A stretch of 39,330 nt of DNA from a virus, in IMG/VR virus record IMGVR_UViG_3300009158_000094, positions 1-39,330 of that record; one strand, 5' to 3'. Both the position numbers and the translations under genes were made by a program. The notes beneath the pieces were generated by a model. The model was not told where the DNA came from and did no database searches. It saw only the letters and a list, made by a program, of their open reading frames with translations. Shown piece after piece: positions 3,419-23,949 of the stretch (its first letter is position 1; each line of letters begins with the position of its first letter).

Positions 3419-3642
3419 TTCTCACGCTCCTTCAACATGGCGTCTGCGAATTCATACCCGACACGAACAACGTCTTCAATCCTTGGCGTAGTGCCGTCAG
3501 TACACGGTAAAAATCCACGGATAACTGATGCAGCGAAGTAATCACGCAGGGTCATGCCGTGGGTGATGTACTCGTTACCGTCTTGCGGATCAACGTAGCT
3601 CGACGGGAAAGCCCGTTCGGGTAGTAGATAAACTTTCATCAT
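3415..3642 (-). CDS. Conserved small phage protein with GMTLRDYFAA motif
   Basis: A 75-residue protein with the central sequence GMTLRDYFAASVIRGFL and a C-terminal ADAMLKEREK. This combination (GMTLRDxFA followed by a Y/A-rich helix and ADAML-x-x-RE) is a widespread small phage or prophage protein of unknown function. The start overlaps the upstream stop by ATGA. There are two adjacent Met codons at the start. Confidence 0.7.
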   Translation of the reverse strand: MMKVYLLPERAFPSSYVDPQDGNEYITHGMTLRDYFAASVIRGFLPCTDGTTPRIEDVVRVGYEFADAMLKEREK

Positions 3643-3794
3643 TCATTCTCCAGACTAAGTAGCTCCATCTGCAACTCATGCAATCTTTTCTCATCATGGT
3701 CGATGAGCATCTTGCACTCCATCATGCGTTCTTTGGTCAGCGTAATGTCGTAGCGCATGAAGGCTATCAACATCTTCAGGAAGTAGTATCTCAT
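3639..3794 (-). CDS. Hypothetical helical protein, 51 aa
   Basis: Translation from the ATG at 3794 gives MRYYFLKMLIAFMRYDITLT followed by a charged helix ending LLSLENE. A longer frame exists upstream, but it is the shadow of the neighbouring gene, and the ATG at 3794 overlaps that neighbour's stop as ATGA. Looks like a short amphipathic or coiled-coil protein. Function unknown. Confidence 0.6.
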   Translation of the reverse strand: MRYYFLKMLIAFMRYDITLTKERMMECKMLIDHDEKRLHELQMELLSLENE

Positions 3795-7937: not shown

Positions 7938-9887
7938 ATGACGATAGCATGGGTTGATTTTGAAACGAGAAGCAGATGCAATCTGCTGACTAGGGGCGCG
8001 TACAATTACGCGATGGACAGCAGCACCGAGGTTATCTGCATGTGCTACGCCATTGACGATGGCCCAGTGCAAACATGGGTGCCGGGGGATGCGCTGCCTG
8101 ACTTCACTGGTATGCAGATCAGAGCGCACAACGCTGCATTTGAAAGACTGATTTTCACTTATGTTCTGGAGCAAGAGTACGCGCTGGAGCAGTATTACTG
8201 CACTGCAGCACAAGCCAGAGCCAACTCTATGCCGGGTTCGTTGGAGGATGTTGGCCGTGCTGCAGGAGCGTCGATGCGTAAGGACTATCGAGGCGCTGAG
8301 TTGATCCGCAAGCTATCCATCCCGCAGCCAGGGGGGGATTTCAATTACGACCCTTTGCTGCTAGAGGAAATGCGGGCGTACTGCCGTCAGGACGTTGAGG
8401 CTATGCGGGCGATATCAAAAGGTTTGCGTGGCCTGTCCGCCGAGGAGTTATCCGACTACCATATCAACGAGCGTATTAACGACCGTGGTGTGCTGGTTGA
8501 TGTTGAACTATGCCGTGCTGCTATCAAATATTCAGATGCTGAAGTGGCTGAGATACAGCAGATCGTTCAGCAGGTATCCGGGCTGACTTCGGTGCGCTCG
8601 CCCAAGATGCGTGAGTGGGTGCAGGCCAGAGTCGGCCCGGAAGCACTCAAGCTGATGACCGTCTATAAGGACGGCGAAAAGAAGATGTCCGTCGACAAGT
8701 CTGTACGGGCGTCGTTACTCATTCTTGCAGAGGAAAACCCTGATGAAGTACCGGAAGACGTTGCGGAAATACTCCAGTGTGCCGACGATGTTTGGGCCTC
8801 CTCGGTTGCGAAGTTCAGCCGCCTTGCAAATTTGGCTGACGAGGAGGATAGCCGAGTGCGTGGCGCGTTCGTATTCAACGGGGGGGCGGCAACCGGAAGA
8901 GCATCCAGTTACGGGGCGCAGGTTCATAATTTCACCCGCAAATGCTCTAAAGAGCCAGATGCACTAAGGCGGGCGATGGTGCGCGGGCATGAGATCGTGC
9001 CGAAGTATGGCAAGCGTATCACTGACTGCCTCAAGGGTATGCTGCGCCCGGCACTGATACCGCAGCCCGGTCATGTGTTCGTCGTAGCAGACTGGGCCGG
9101 TATCGAAGCGCGGTGCAACTCTTGGCTATCGAATCAGCCACAAGCAGAACAGGTGCTGGACGTATTCCGATCGGGTAAGGATATTTATATCCAAGAGGCG
9201 GCAGGCATATTCCACTGCACCGAAGAAGAAGTGAATACGGATCGTCGGCAGATCGGCAAGGTAGCTATTCTGTCTTGTGGGTACGCCGGGGGAAAAAACG
9301 CCTTTGCATCAATGGGCCAAAATTACGGCGTAGTGCTGCCAGAGTCGGATGCTGTCCGCACAGTAGAGGCGTGGCGGCGGTCGAACCAGTGGGCGGTGCG
9401 CTACTGGCAGGAGATTGAGATAGCCTATACCAAGGCGATGCGCCATGTCGGGCATGAGTTTAACGCTGGGCGGGTGGTGTATATGTTTGATGGTGAGCAT
9501 CTATGGTACGCGCTGCCCTCTGGTCGTGTGCTGCGCTACCCCTACGCCAAGCTGGAAGGCGATGAACTGACCTACCTCAAGTCCGCATGGAAACCCGCCG
9601 CCGACGCTAAAGAGTGGCCCCGCGCGCGGCTATGGAAAGGGCTGGCTTGCGAGAACATCTGTCAGGCAACCGCCAACGACATATTGAGGGGCGCACTGCG
9701 GGAATGCGATAGACAAGATTTACAAGTAGAACTTCACATCCACGATGAAATCGTTATTTCTTGCAAGCCGGAAGAAATAGAGTTTTCAAAAGCAACTTTA
9801 AGGGCTATAATGTGTATGCCGCCAGAATGGGCCGTTGGGCTTCCGTTGGCGGTAGACATAAAGGACATGGCCCGTTATGGAAAATAA
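7938..9887 (+). CDS. Family A DNA polymerase with 3'-5' exonuclease domain
   Basis: A 649-residue replicative phage polymerase. The exonuclease domain has WVDFET (Asp7, Glu9; Exo I), HNAAFE (64-69; Exo II) and YCRQDVEAM near 148-155 (Exo III). The polymerase domain has motif A VVADWAGIEAR near residue 385, motif B as RRQIGKVAILSCGYAGG near 435, and motif C LHIHDEI with His-Asp-Glu at 602-604. All catalytic acids are present. The frame ends MARYGK and stops at 9885-9887, overlapping the HNH gene by 11 bases. The last codons are duplicated downstream of that gene, which shows that polymerase and primase were once directly overlapping. No ribosome binding site is obvious within the terminator region upstream. 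Confidence 0.93.
   Translation: MTIAWVDFETRSRCNLLTRGAYNYAMDSSTEVICMCYAIDDGPVQTWVPGDALPDFTGMQIRAHNAAFERLIFTYVLEQEYALEQYYCTAAQARANSMPGSLEDVGRAAGASMRKDYRGAELIRKLSIPQPGGDFNYDPLLLEEMRAYCRQDVEAMRAISKGLRGLSAEELSDYHINERINDRGVLVDVELCRAAIKYSDAEVAEIQQIVQQVSGLTSVRSPKMREWVQARVGPEALKLMTVYKDGEKKMSVDKSVRASLLILAEENPDEVPEDVAEILQCADDVWASSVAKFSRLANLADEEDSRVRGAFVFNGGAATGRASSYGAQVHNFTRKCSKEPDALRRAMVRGHEIVPKYGKRITDCLKGMLRPALIPQPGHVFVVADWAGIEARCNSWLSNQPQAEQVLDVFRSGKDIYIQEAAGIFHCTEEEVNTDRRQIGKVAILSCGYAGGKNAFASMGQNYGVVLPESDAVRTVEAWRRSNQWAVRYWQEIEIAYTKAMRHVGHEFNAGRVVYMFDGEHLWYALPSGRVLRYPYAKLEGDELTYLKSAWKPAADAKEWPRARLWKGLACENICQATANDILRGALRECDRQDLQVELHIHDEIVISCKPEEIEFSKATLRAIMCMPPEWAVGLPLAVDIKDMARYGK
9860..9887. repeat. 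Left copy of 28-nt duplication flanking HNH gene
   Basis: Covers the last codons of the polymerase gene and the HNH start codon. It matches 10383-10410 at 23 of 28 positions, including the unbroken 10-base core CCCGTTATGG. Confidence 0.75.
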
Positions 9888-10383
9888 AATTACGCAGGAG
9901 AAATTGAAAGAGCTATTTATATACAATAAGAAAACTGGTTTGTTTACTCGGAGGGTTTCTACTGGTAGGCATGATTGCCACAAAGCTGGAGAGATAGCCG
10001 GAACTAAATTAACCCATAGGTACGTGGTGATATCTATAGGAACGCAAAGATATATGGCCCACCGTTTAGCTTGGCTGTATGTGTATGGCATATGGCCCGC
10101 CGGAGATTTAGACCACATAAACCAGGATAAATATGACAATAGAATAACTAACTTAAGAGAAGCCACAAGAAAACAAAACATGCAGAATGTAACTAGGCAC
10201 AAACACAACACCAGTGGCTTTAAGGGTGTCGCGTGGCACAAGCAACGTAACAGATGGAGAGCGTATATTTTTATTGACTACAAGCAAAAGCACTTAGGGC
10301 TATTCGAAACAAAAGAAAAAGCAAACGAAGCTAGACTAGACGCAGAAAAAATATACCACAGTCATTCTACGCAAACGAAATGA
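9877..10383 (+). CDS. HNH homing-type endonuclease with AP2 domain
   Basis: A 168-residue free-standing endonuclease. The HNH part reads AHRLAWLYVYG, then DLDHINQDKYDNRITNLREA (the catalytic DH followed by the N-L metal/structure residues). The C-terminal AP2-type DNA-binding part reads FKGVAWHKQRNRWRAYIFI, then KHLGLFETKEKANEARLDA. Base composition is clearly richer in A and T than the polymerase and primase on either side, which suggests recent acquisition. It lies exactly between the polymerase and the primase and is flanked by a 28-nt imperfect repeat. It starts inside the polymerase gene (11-base overlap) with no ribosome binding site of its own. Probably a mobile gene that spreads by cutting endonuclease-free relatives. 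Confidence 0.9.
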   Translation: MENKITQEKLKELFIYNKKTGLFTRRVSTGRHDCHKAGEIAGTKLTHRYVVISIGTQRYMAHRLAWLYVYGIWPAGDLDHINQDKYDNRITNLREATRKQNMQNVTRHKHNTSGFKGVAWHKQRNRWRAYIFIDYKQKHLGLFETKEKANEARLDAEKIYHSHSTQTK

Positions 10384-22133: not shown

Positions 22134-22172
22134 ATGGCATTTGCCAACTCTAGCATCACGGATATCATCGCT
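22134..22172 (+). CDS. Major capsid protein, exon 1
   Basis: Encodes MAFANSSITDIIA, the conserved start of this capsid family, after AGGAGAAAC. The next codon in the DNA is TGA (22173-22175), so without splicing only a 13-residue peptide would be made. The last base of the exon is T, as group I 5' splice sites require, and CATCGCT (22166-22172) pairs with GGCGATG at 22765-22771 to form P1. Joined to exon 2 it gives MAFANSSITDIIA-TTIQSR. Confidence 0.88.
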
Positions 22173-22740
22173 TGACTGAATATGCTGCTAAATATGTCTC
22201 TGTTATCCGGCAATGCTTTTTACGGTTCTCTTCAGCAGGAATACACTGAAGATTCCAAGGAACGTGTAACCCGGAAACCGGACGACCATCTATTAAGCCT
22301 TTCAGCGGAATAATGTGATCAACGTGAAACTCTTTCGGACAACTAGCGTAAATAGCAAGAATATCGTCGAGGTTAACCCACGGCGGAGTTCTTCCTTTAA
22401 CGTCTTTACGCCGATAGAACTTTCTAGCGGAACAGGATGGGTCGGTAGCCCAAACAAGCCGTCTAGTAGCGTTAAGTTCATCTTTCCGAAGATCGTACCG
22501 TTTCTTCTTAAGTTCTTGCCTTCTGGCAACGTAAGCAGGATTAGTAGCCTCTTGCTTTCTACGCCAAGCGTTTTGATACTCAGCGTACTTCCCAAAGTAT
22601 TTGGGCGCACGTTTAATCAAATCTGCTTTAGTACAGGTTTTGCACTTATGAGAAACAGTATTGCCCTTTTTGTAGTATTCGGAACGTGGGGTATCAATCC
22701 CGCAACCGGGGCAAATCTTAGTAATGAATGGTTGTCTCAT
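22165..22740 (-). CDS. Antisense HNH homing endonuclease in group I intron
   Basis: A 191-residue protein from the ATG at 22740 (MRQPFITKICPGCGIDTPRS). A zinc ribbon with Cys10, Cys13, Cys33 and Cys36 is followed by a long basic helical linker (ARRQELKKKRYDLRKDELNA) and an HNH motif: FHVDHIIPL with Asp141-His142, WNLQ with Asn163, and EENRKK with Asn172. It probably cuts intronless capsid genes and so spreads the intron. A longer frame to 22821 adds a Phe/Tyr-rich stretch that runs upstream of the promoter and is not used. The stop codon (22167-22165) and the last sense codon (22170-22168) lie in capsid exon 1, and the preceding AAG codon spans the 5' splice junction. Transcription opposes capsid expression. 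Confidence 0.88.
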   Translation of the reverse strand: MRQPFITKICPGCGIDTPRSEYYKKGNTVSHKCKTCTKADLIKRAPKYFGKYAEYQNAWRRKQEATNPAYVARRQELKKKRYDLRKDELNATRRLVWATDPSCSARKFYRRKDVKGRTPPWVNLDDILAIYASCPKEFHVDHIIPLKGLIDGRPVSGLHVPWNLQCIPAEENRKKHCRITETYLAAYSVKR

Positions 22741-22992
22741 AGAGATATTATAGCACAACAAATAGGCGATGTAAAACAGGATGAAAACGGTGAAACCCCA
22801 GAACGGGCAATACCGTGCCAAGCCTCAGCACCTAAAAGGGTTGAGGAAGGTGTAACGACTAGGTTCCGAGCGAAAGCGGTAATGAACCCACGAGCGTCCT
22901 GCCCTACTAATCTAGTAGGTGATGAGATAGTCTACTCTGTATGGGAACATACAGGAGCCTCGGATAAAGAGCCGGGGACGAAAATATATAGG
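22173..22992 (+). other. Group I self-splicing intron (820 nt) in capsid gene
   Basis: Begins after T22172 and ends with G22992 (omega-G). P1: exon CATCGCT (22166-22172) with guide GGCGATG (22765-22771), seven pairs including the required U-G at the splice site. Core downstream of the guide: a hairpin at 22823-22846 (CCTCA/TGAGG), P7 GACTA (22857-22861) with TAGTC (22928-22932), P8 CCTACTA/TAGTAGG (22903-22919), and a P9 hairpin CTGTATG-GGAA-CATACAG (22937-22954). The R- and S-like sequences GTAACGACTA and GATGAGATAGTC are typical of group I introns. The HNH gene lies on the opposite strand in the P1 loop. Removal restores a 331-residue capsid protein in frame. Confidence 0.88.
22747..22775 (-). 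promoter_or_regulatory. Promoter of antisense HNH gene, around the intron guide
   Basis: Minus strand: -35 TTTACA (22775-22770; 5 of 6 consensus), 17-base spacer, -10 TATAAT (22752-22747; perfect). The predicted start is at about 22740, the A of the ATG, and there is no ribosome binding site, so a leaderless message is likely. The spacer contains almost the entire P1 guide sequence (22765-22771) of the intron on the other strand. Confidence 0.65.
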
Positions 22993-23949
22993 ACAACGAT
23001 TCAATCACGGTCTGGCGAACTTGCAGACAACTTGACTAACAATAACGCGCTCTTGAAGAAGCTGAAATCCAAGGGCAACGTGCGTCCGTTCAGCGGTGGT
23101 AATGTGATTTTGGAAGAAATCATGTACAACGACACCGCTACGAACAACGCTAACAGCTATTCTGGCTACGAACTGATTAACATCAGCCCGGACAGCCCGA
23201 TCAGTGCTGCTCAGTTTTCGATCACCCAGTACGCCGATGCCGTTACCATGTCGGGTCTGGAAGGTCTGCAGAACAGCGGTAAAGAGCAAATCATCGACCT
23301 GCTTGATGGTCGTATGAAGGTTTCGGAAGCTCGCCTTCTGAACCGTATCGCTGGCGACATCTACCTTGACGGTACTGGCAACGGTGGCAAGAATATCACT
23401 GGTCTGGCTGCGGCTGTGCCTGATGTTCCGACAACGGGTACTTACGGTGGTATTGACCGCGCTACTTGGAGCTTCTGGCAGTCGAAGAAGTATTCTGGCG
23501 TGACGAACGGCGGCGCTGCTGTGTCTGCTGCGAACATTCAGCAGTACATGACCGCTCTGGCGATTCAACTGGTTCGCGGTACGGACAAGGCTGACCTCAT
23601 CGTTGCTGACAATACCTACTACGGTCTGTATGTCAACAGCCTTCAAGCTATTCAACGTATCTCCAGTGACTCCGAAGCGGCTGCTGGCTTCGCTTCGCTG
23701 AAGTTCTACGGTGGTGGTACGGCTGCTGATGTCGTTCTGGACGGTGGTGTCGGTTCTAACGCGACTGCTGCTCACATGTGGTTCTTGAACACGAACTACA
23801 TCTTCTTCCGCCCGCACAAAGATCGCAATTTCGTGCCGATTGGTGGTGAGCGTCAAGCCGTAAACCAAGACGCGATTGTCAAGCTGTACGGGTGGGCAGG
23901 TAATCTTACTACGTCCAATTCTTTCCTCCAGGGTGTGTTGATTGCCTAA
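22993..23949 (+). CDS. Major capsid protein, exon 2
   Basis: Encodes 318 residues starting TTIQSRSGELADNLTNNNAL, which continues the exon 1 sequence without a gap. Recognisable capsid blocks of this phage family are SGLEGLQNSGKEQIIDLLDG, IYLDGTGNGGKNITGLAAAV, YGGIDRATWSFWQSKKYSGV, DLIVADNTYY and the ending NSFLQGVLIA. The spliced protein has 331 residues, a normal length for an HK97-fold-type major coat protein. Codon use is G/C-richer than in the intron. An open frame runs from the intron (22315) into this exon, but its intron part is a mirror of the HNH gene and not capsid sequence. Confidence 0.9.
   Translation, partial: TTIQSRSGELADNLTNNNALLKKLKSKGNVRPFSGGNVILEEIMYNDTATNNANSYSGYELINISPDSPISAAQFSITQYADAVTMSGLEGLQNSGKEQIIDLLDGRMKVSEARLLNRIAGDIYLDGTGNGGKNITGLAAAVPDVPTTGTYGGIDRATWSFWQSKKYSGVTNGGAAVSAANIQQYMTALAIQLVRGTDKADLIVADNTYYGLYVNSLQAIQRISSDSEAAAGFASLKFYGGGTAADVVLDGGVGSNATAAHMWFLNTNYIFFRPHKDRNFVPIGGERQAVNQDAIVKLYGWAGNLTTSNSFLQGVLIA

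Follow-up and report, generated by a model that had tools for sequence, protein, structure and literature searches.

How can a group I intron accommodate an antisense nuclease gene in the loop of its P1 hairpin, how might such a gene be transcribed, and how might the host capsid gene still be spliced? These questions are raised by the major capsid gene in the 39,330-nt IMG/VR virus record IMGVR_UViG_3300009158_000094, which was analysed at full length and is called the window here. According to the PHROG scan its proteins include a helicase, an exonuclease, a DNA polymerase, a primase, a large terminase, a portal and other virion proteins. Between DNA polymerase and primase, at 9877-10383 (+), there is a further HNH gene (PHROG 99), unrelated to the one in the capsid intron.

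Results

A group I intron interrupts the major capsid gene

An insert of 820 nt follows codon 13 of the major capsid gene, whose start is at 22134. The features of the interrupted gene are as follows.

22134..22172, + strand: capsid exon 1 (MAFANSSITDIIA), with U at the 5' splice site; contiguous with intronless relatives once joined
22173..22992, + strand: group I intron, 820 nt; Rfam RF00028 match, boundaries from the capsid reading frame, terminal G
22993..23949, + strand: capsid exon 2, joining exon 1 in the reading frame
22765..22771, + strand: guide (IGS) GGCGAUG, forming 7 bp with exon CAUCGCU (22166-22172), U.G at the splice site

The joined exons (MAFANSSITDIIA followed directly by TTIQSRSGELADN and the rest of exon 2) encode a capsid protein of 331 amino acids, which could be aligned without a break with 72 of 80 capsid relatives, the remaining ones being interrupted or truncated. 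The nearest isolates, with 48-54% identity to the window capsid, are Stenotrophomonas phage BUCT555, a Bradyrhizobium phage, Mx8 and Mx9. The Rfam scan of the window placed an Intron_gpI (RF00028) match at 22728-22954 on the + strand (66.7 bits, E 6.3e-15), and the conserved catalytic core (P3-P8, P7) was recognized, together with the U.G pair at the 5' splice site, a guide pairing with exon 1 and the terminal G. The intron is presumed to be self-splicing; exact joining restores the capsid frame.

The guide had been proposed at 22765-22771 in an earlier, sequence-only reading, and this position held: when the intron was searched for pairing with the exon, no better alternative was found near 22173, and the sole longer exon match within the intron, at 22918, lies inside the invariant P8/P7 region. 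Additionally, the pairing is compensated in one relative (L187), where exon AUCACU faces guide GGUGAU. An in-frame stop codon (UGA at 22173-22175 in the window, UGA or UAA in relatives) opens the intron at the 5' splice site in all members of the family described below but L182, and it ends translation of the unspliced capsid RNA.

An intact antisense HNH gene fills the P1 loop

22165..22740, - strand: HNH endonuclease gene, 191 amino acids; ATG at 22740, TGA at 22165, stop and last codon in exon 1

The HNH gene is intact and sits antisense between the 5' splice site (between 22172 and 22173) and the guide. Given the positions of these two elements it fills the P1 loop, as the sequence-only reading had claimed on the same grounds; the arrangement recurs in 12 further phage contigs. 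The span of 22165-22775 given for it does contain the gene, a promoter-like site, the guide and the exon 1 overlap, but the gene itself ends at 22740 and the rest is promoter and guide. The terminal codons of the window gene lie exactly where that reading had put them, with AAG (22171-22173) across the junction and CGA and TGA within exon 1. The position of the stop codon in exon 1, however, varies among relatives: counted from the first intron base it falls anywhere between -45 and +15; in L180 and L182 it is wholly intronic, and in the other 11 of the 13 members it spans the junction or lies within exon 1 or past it. A functional role for the exon 1 stop was rejected on account of these varying positions, and this stop was regarded as an accident of the boundary.

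In the HNH protein the VDHI..PL, N and N..K positions are invariant, as expected of an HNH/His-Me motif, and four N-terminal cysteines are conserved. PHROG 1035 (endonuclease VII/HNH) was matched by all 12 members scanned, with E down to 1.5e-17. No firm Pfam or PDB match was obtained for the protein: the Pfam HNH hit remained below the cut-off and the fold matches were weak. The 12 aligned HNH proteins are 56-75% identical to that of the window, dN is 0.17-0.37 with saturated dS, and the changes fall mostly at third codon positions. The low dN beside saturated dS indicates that the gene has been maintained by purifying selection.

The same layout is present in 13 phage contigs

A comparative search for the same arrangement in related capsid genes, suggested by the sequence-only reading, was carried out and yielded 12 more phages. 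The window and these relatives (L001, L018, L030, L038, L179, L180, L182, L183, L185, L187, L188 and L193) are 13 distinct contigs which share insertion site, orientation and location in the P1 loop. L001 is an IMG/VR contig with a 75%-identical HNH protein in the same layout; L018, L030 and L038 were recovered from among the capsid relatives. Searching for the guide together with the core, without regard to HNH or to the promoter and its TATAAT, recovered 11 of the 12 relatives and, in addition, L181. A scan that required the same -10 and the core but allowed any guide sequence gave one extra member at the same capsid site, L193. RF00028 scored above the gathering threshold in the window, L001, L030, L038, L181, L182, L185 and L187, and more weakly in L018, L180 and L188.

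L181 carries a group I intron at the same capsid site (approximately 3489-3740; Rfam 60.7 bits) that lacks HNH in P1: its P1 loop measures 12 nt versus 590-622 nt in the HNH-bearing members. This intron is the empty form of the element. The optional presence of the intron at one capsid site gives a distribution consistent with homing.

A conserved extended -10 element adjoins the guide

22747..22755, - strand: extended -10 element TGCTATAAT, 6 nt from the HNH ATG; TATAAT conserved
22770..22775, - strand: TTTACA, -35-like; mainly the complement of the intron-core UGUAAA beside the guide

It had been suggested that a -35/-10 promoter is wrapped around the guide. The window does contain the string TTTACA-17-TATAAT once, where shuffles predict 0.02 occurrences, and no other site nearby has 11 of 12 promoter matches. 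Comparison of the members confirmed one half of this proposal, a conserved -10 adjoining the guide, while the other half was not supported. The window TATAAT carries the TG extension of a sigma-70 promoter; the hexamer is exact in 11 of the 13 members (TATGAT in L188, TACAAT in L187), and so is the count for the TG extension, absent from L030 and L188. When the members were aligned on the -10, the TGnTATAATnTCT block (TGnTATAAT plus the next TCT) was about 70-100% identical except for the variable n, versus 20-47% in the flanks.

The -35-like hexamer behaves differently. A hexamer at 15-19 nt was found in the window (17 nt) but is not a feature of the family, in which TTTACA and the -10 are 12-17 nt apart, with seven members at 12-14 nt; the hexamer is TTTATA in L193, and UGUAAA stands beside the guide also in L181, where there is no HNH in P1. 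A general -35/-10 promoter around the guide was therefore rejected as a family feature. Since TTTACA is the complement of core sequence at a varying distance, an extended -10 promoter becomes the likelier form: judged from the alignments, the functional HNH promoter is most likely the extended -10 site, and the -35 would be at best a bonus where the spacing is 15-17 nt. L188 (4654-5270) has TATGAT and no TG extension, yet has TTTACA at 17 nt; its stem (see below) is changed to GGCGG/CCGCC.

In 8 of 13 members 6 nt separate the -10 from the HNH start codon; the gap is 7-9 nt in four others and 27 nt in L179. From these distances the transcripts of most members are predicted to start with the initiation codon or shortly ahead of it, which suggests a leaderless or near-leaderless HNH mRNA. 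No phage RNA polymerase was seen among the window ORFs given PHROG scans, so that the host polymerase is the likely transcribing enzyme.

The -10 box lies in an arm of a co-varying P1-extension stem

22186..22203, + strand: 5' arm of the P1 extension; minimum free energy pairing with 22739-22755, complement encoding part of the HNH C-terminal tail
22739..22755, + strand: 3' arm of the P1 extension; complement holding TGCTATAAT and the first HNH bases

In the sense RNA the 30 nt preceding the guide form a stem with intron nucleotides at about +10 to +31. This P1-extension stem, absent from the sequence-only reading, has the -10 box in its 3' arm; in the window an unconstrained fold pairs 22186-22190 with 22751-22755 and 22194-22203 with 22739-22748. 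The arms of the members fit each other: own arms gave -18.8 kcal/mol versus -14.6 kcal/mol on average for swapped arms, a difference reached by none of 100,000 permutations and retained at p 0.001 without the two strongest members (L030 and L188), these p values being inexact and indicative because the members are related. The same arm-swap test in eight control windows gave p 0.17-0.93. L038 is an exception, whose own arms pair worse than most swapped arms.

Folding of the exon with the whole intron produced P1 (at least 3.4 of 6 bp) together with the stem in 9 of 13 members; P1 was not clear in the folds of L001, L038, L185 and L188. When only the stem pairs were forbidden, P1 nearly vanished (close to 0) in eight of these nine and was lowered to 3.8 in the window. 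In the folding models, then, P1 depends on the P1-extension stem, although an energy model is no proof of folding in the cell. Such a stem could explain how an insert of about 600 nt is tolerated in P1.

The location of the box raises the alternative that TATAAT is conserved just as an arm of the RNA stem and is no promoter, HNH being expressed from read-through antisense transcription. The block indeed lies within the 3' arm of a co-varying stem, and TTTACA stands at a non-canonical distance in most members. Against this, TATAAT is kept in 11 of 13 3' arms while the opposite arm varies, and the two deviating hexamers still match the consensus at 5 of 6 positions. Furthermore, the TG extension accompanies it in 11 of 13 members, all but one of the 13 have the block at 6-9 nt from the HNH start, and there is no comparable promoter site nearby. 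We consider this alternative unlikely.

Related introns and the origin of the arrangement

Other phages have introns with a homologous core in the same capsid gene 14-16 codons downstream of the window-type site, following codon 27-29 (L019:4244-5000, L063:2629-3331, L076:4299-5000, L081:4298-5000; core match R1, 100-104 bits). They resemble the window intron in ribozyme core and host gene family but differ in having a sense GIY-YIG gene between two parts of the core and no P1 insert. In another capsid family, gene-less introns with a homologous core occupy two different sites (L086:17-520 and 1243-1478; L087:285-998 and 1285-1506), and in both contigs an HNH gene of the same family is free-standing directly after the capsid gene on the opposite strand. 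This arrangement suggests, without being proof, that a free-standing antisense HNH gene later moved into an intron. Among the distant HNH relatives no further antisense P1 case was seen; those near an intron of the same family are in sense orientation in L083 and L150 and free-standing in L086 and L087. In L150 (2595-4286) four same-strand model matches to the intron core occur within 1.7 kb with a sense HNH gene among them, and L189 (2330-2905, -) has two tandem group I introns of the same family within about 600 nt, whose neighbours are not capsid-like.

These relatives bear on whether HNH is a passenger, sheltered by the intron without making it mobile. Same-family HNH genes standing free beside other capsid genes (L086, L087) would agree with that, as would the L181 intron, which lives at the same site without HNH in P1. 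On the other side, all 13 contigs combine HNH and intron at precisely the same capsid position, as homing predicts, and the gene is under purifying selection. A mere passenger is in our opinion improbable.

Discussion

The locus is best read, with a probability of roughly 0.75, as a mobile group I intron that interrupts a phage major capsid gene and has an antisense HNH homing endonuclease gene in the loop of an extended P1. The intron and its guide, an intact HNH gene under purifying selection, the layout repeated in 13 phages, the insert-free intron, the conserved -10 and the co-varying stem all point to it at the level of sequence. We propose that the host sigma-70 RNA polymerase would transcribe HNH from the extended -10, independently of capsid transcription, and that the endonuclease would cut or nick intronless capsid alleles near the codon-13 site, repair then copying the whole cassette. 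The P1-extension stem would fold the HNH insert of about 600 nt away and hold the guide beside the 5' splice site, so that capsid mRNA could still be spliced. The arms of the stem might thus have multiple roles: as an RNA stem, as the coding tail of HNH (5' arm) and as its promoter (3' arm).

Stem and promoter could also act as a switch making HNH transcription and capsid splicing mutually exclusive on the same DNA. Through its complementarity to exon 1, the guide repeats CATCGC, a portion of the likely homing site, beside the HNH promoter, and HNH could then repress its own promoter, by analogy with T4 I-TevI; we regard this as a speculative and quite unlikely extension. Very unlikely, finally, is that the antisense HNH transcript prevents P1 from pairing or the intron from splicing and holds back capsid expression for as long as HNH is transcribed: a transcript from 22740 is predicted to run through the 5' splice site and exon 1, and a search of the minus strand from 22165 to 21441 gave nothing resembling a terminator, but capsid transcription against the HNH promoter could equally silence HNH, and the HNH relatives in L083, L086 and L087, in sense or free-standing, have no such overlap.

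Mobile introns of this kind are already known. Introns in nuclear rDNA of Porphyra spiralis have His-Cys box ORFs in a P1 extension (PMC2585584), where, as in the window, an optionally present nuclease ORF on the complementary strand separates, within P1, the two partners of the U.G pair, exon U and guide G. The Porphyra reading frames, however, are mostly broken, while the family described here resides in a phage protein gene, encodes HNH, is intact in 13 contigs and has a bacterial -10 box and a co-varying stem. Common descent with the algal His-Cys elements is not indicated: the gene matches HNH/endonuclease VII families and no His-Cys family. The capsid intron of mycobacteriophage LittleE has a nuclease gene on the bottom strand (PMC3706429; JF937101) and resembles the window in its phage major capsid gene, its likely group I intron of about 820 bp and its antisense nuclease, and its splicing has been demonstrated; that nuclease, related to LAGLIDADG (I-CreI) with an HNH-like C-terminus (PMC3706429), is encoded after the Rfam-matched core and not in P1 (core 1359-1562, gene 1565-2098 in L192). 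Antisense homing endonuclease genes are also known from the Didymium introns Dir.S956-2 and Dsq.L2066 (PMC9548176; PMC3679873), which, unlike the window intron, belong to eukaryotic rDNA and the His-Cys family, the Dsq.L2066 gene being in P9.2 with a proposed polymerase II transcript. T4 I-TevI and its relatives are intron endonucleases with a promoter of their own apart from that of the host gene (PMC2988022), a likeness to the window; I-TevI differs in its sense orientation, its middle/late promoters and the control of translation by RNA structure. No phage nuclease gene in P1 was found in the literature searched, which included few subscription papers. An antisense phage HNH gene in P1 with its start signal in the closing stem is an unusual layout.

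The insert-free intron of L181, the free-standing HNH genes by intron-bearing capsid genes and the 13 composite introns provide natural material on the assembly of mobile introns, and a single short DNA segment appears to be under RNA-stem, promoter and coding constraint together. The family suggests how an endonuclease gene may settle in P1, the group I intron hairpin under the tightest constraint, with splicing retained: the proposed solution is an antisense gene with its own promoter, closed off by a compensating stem.
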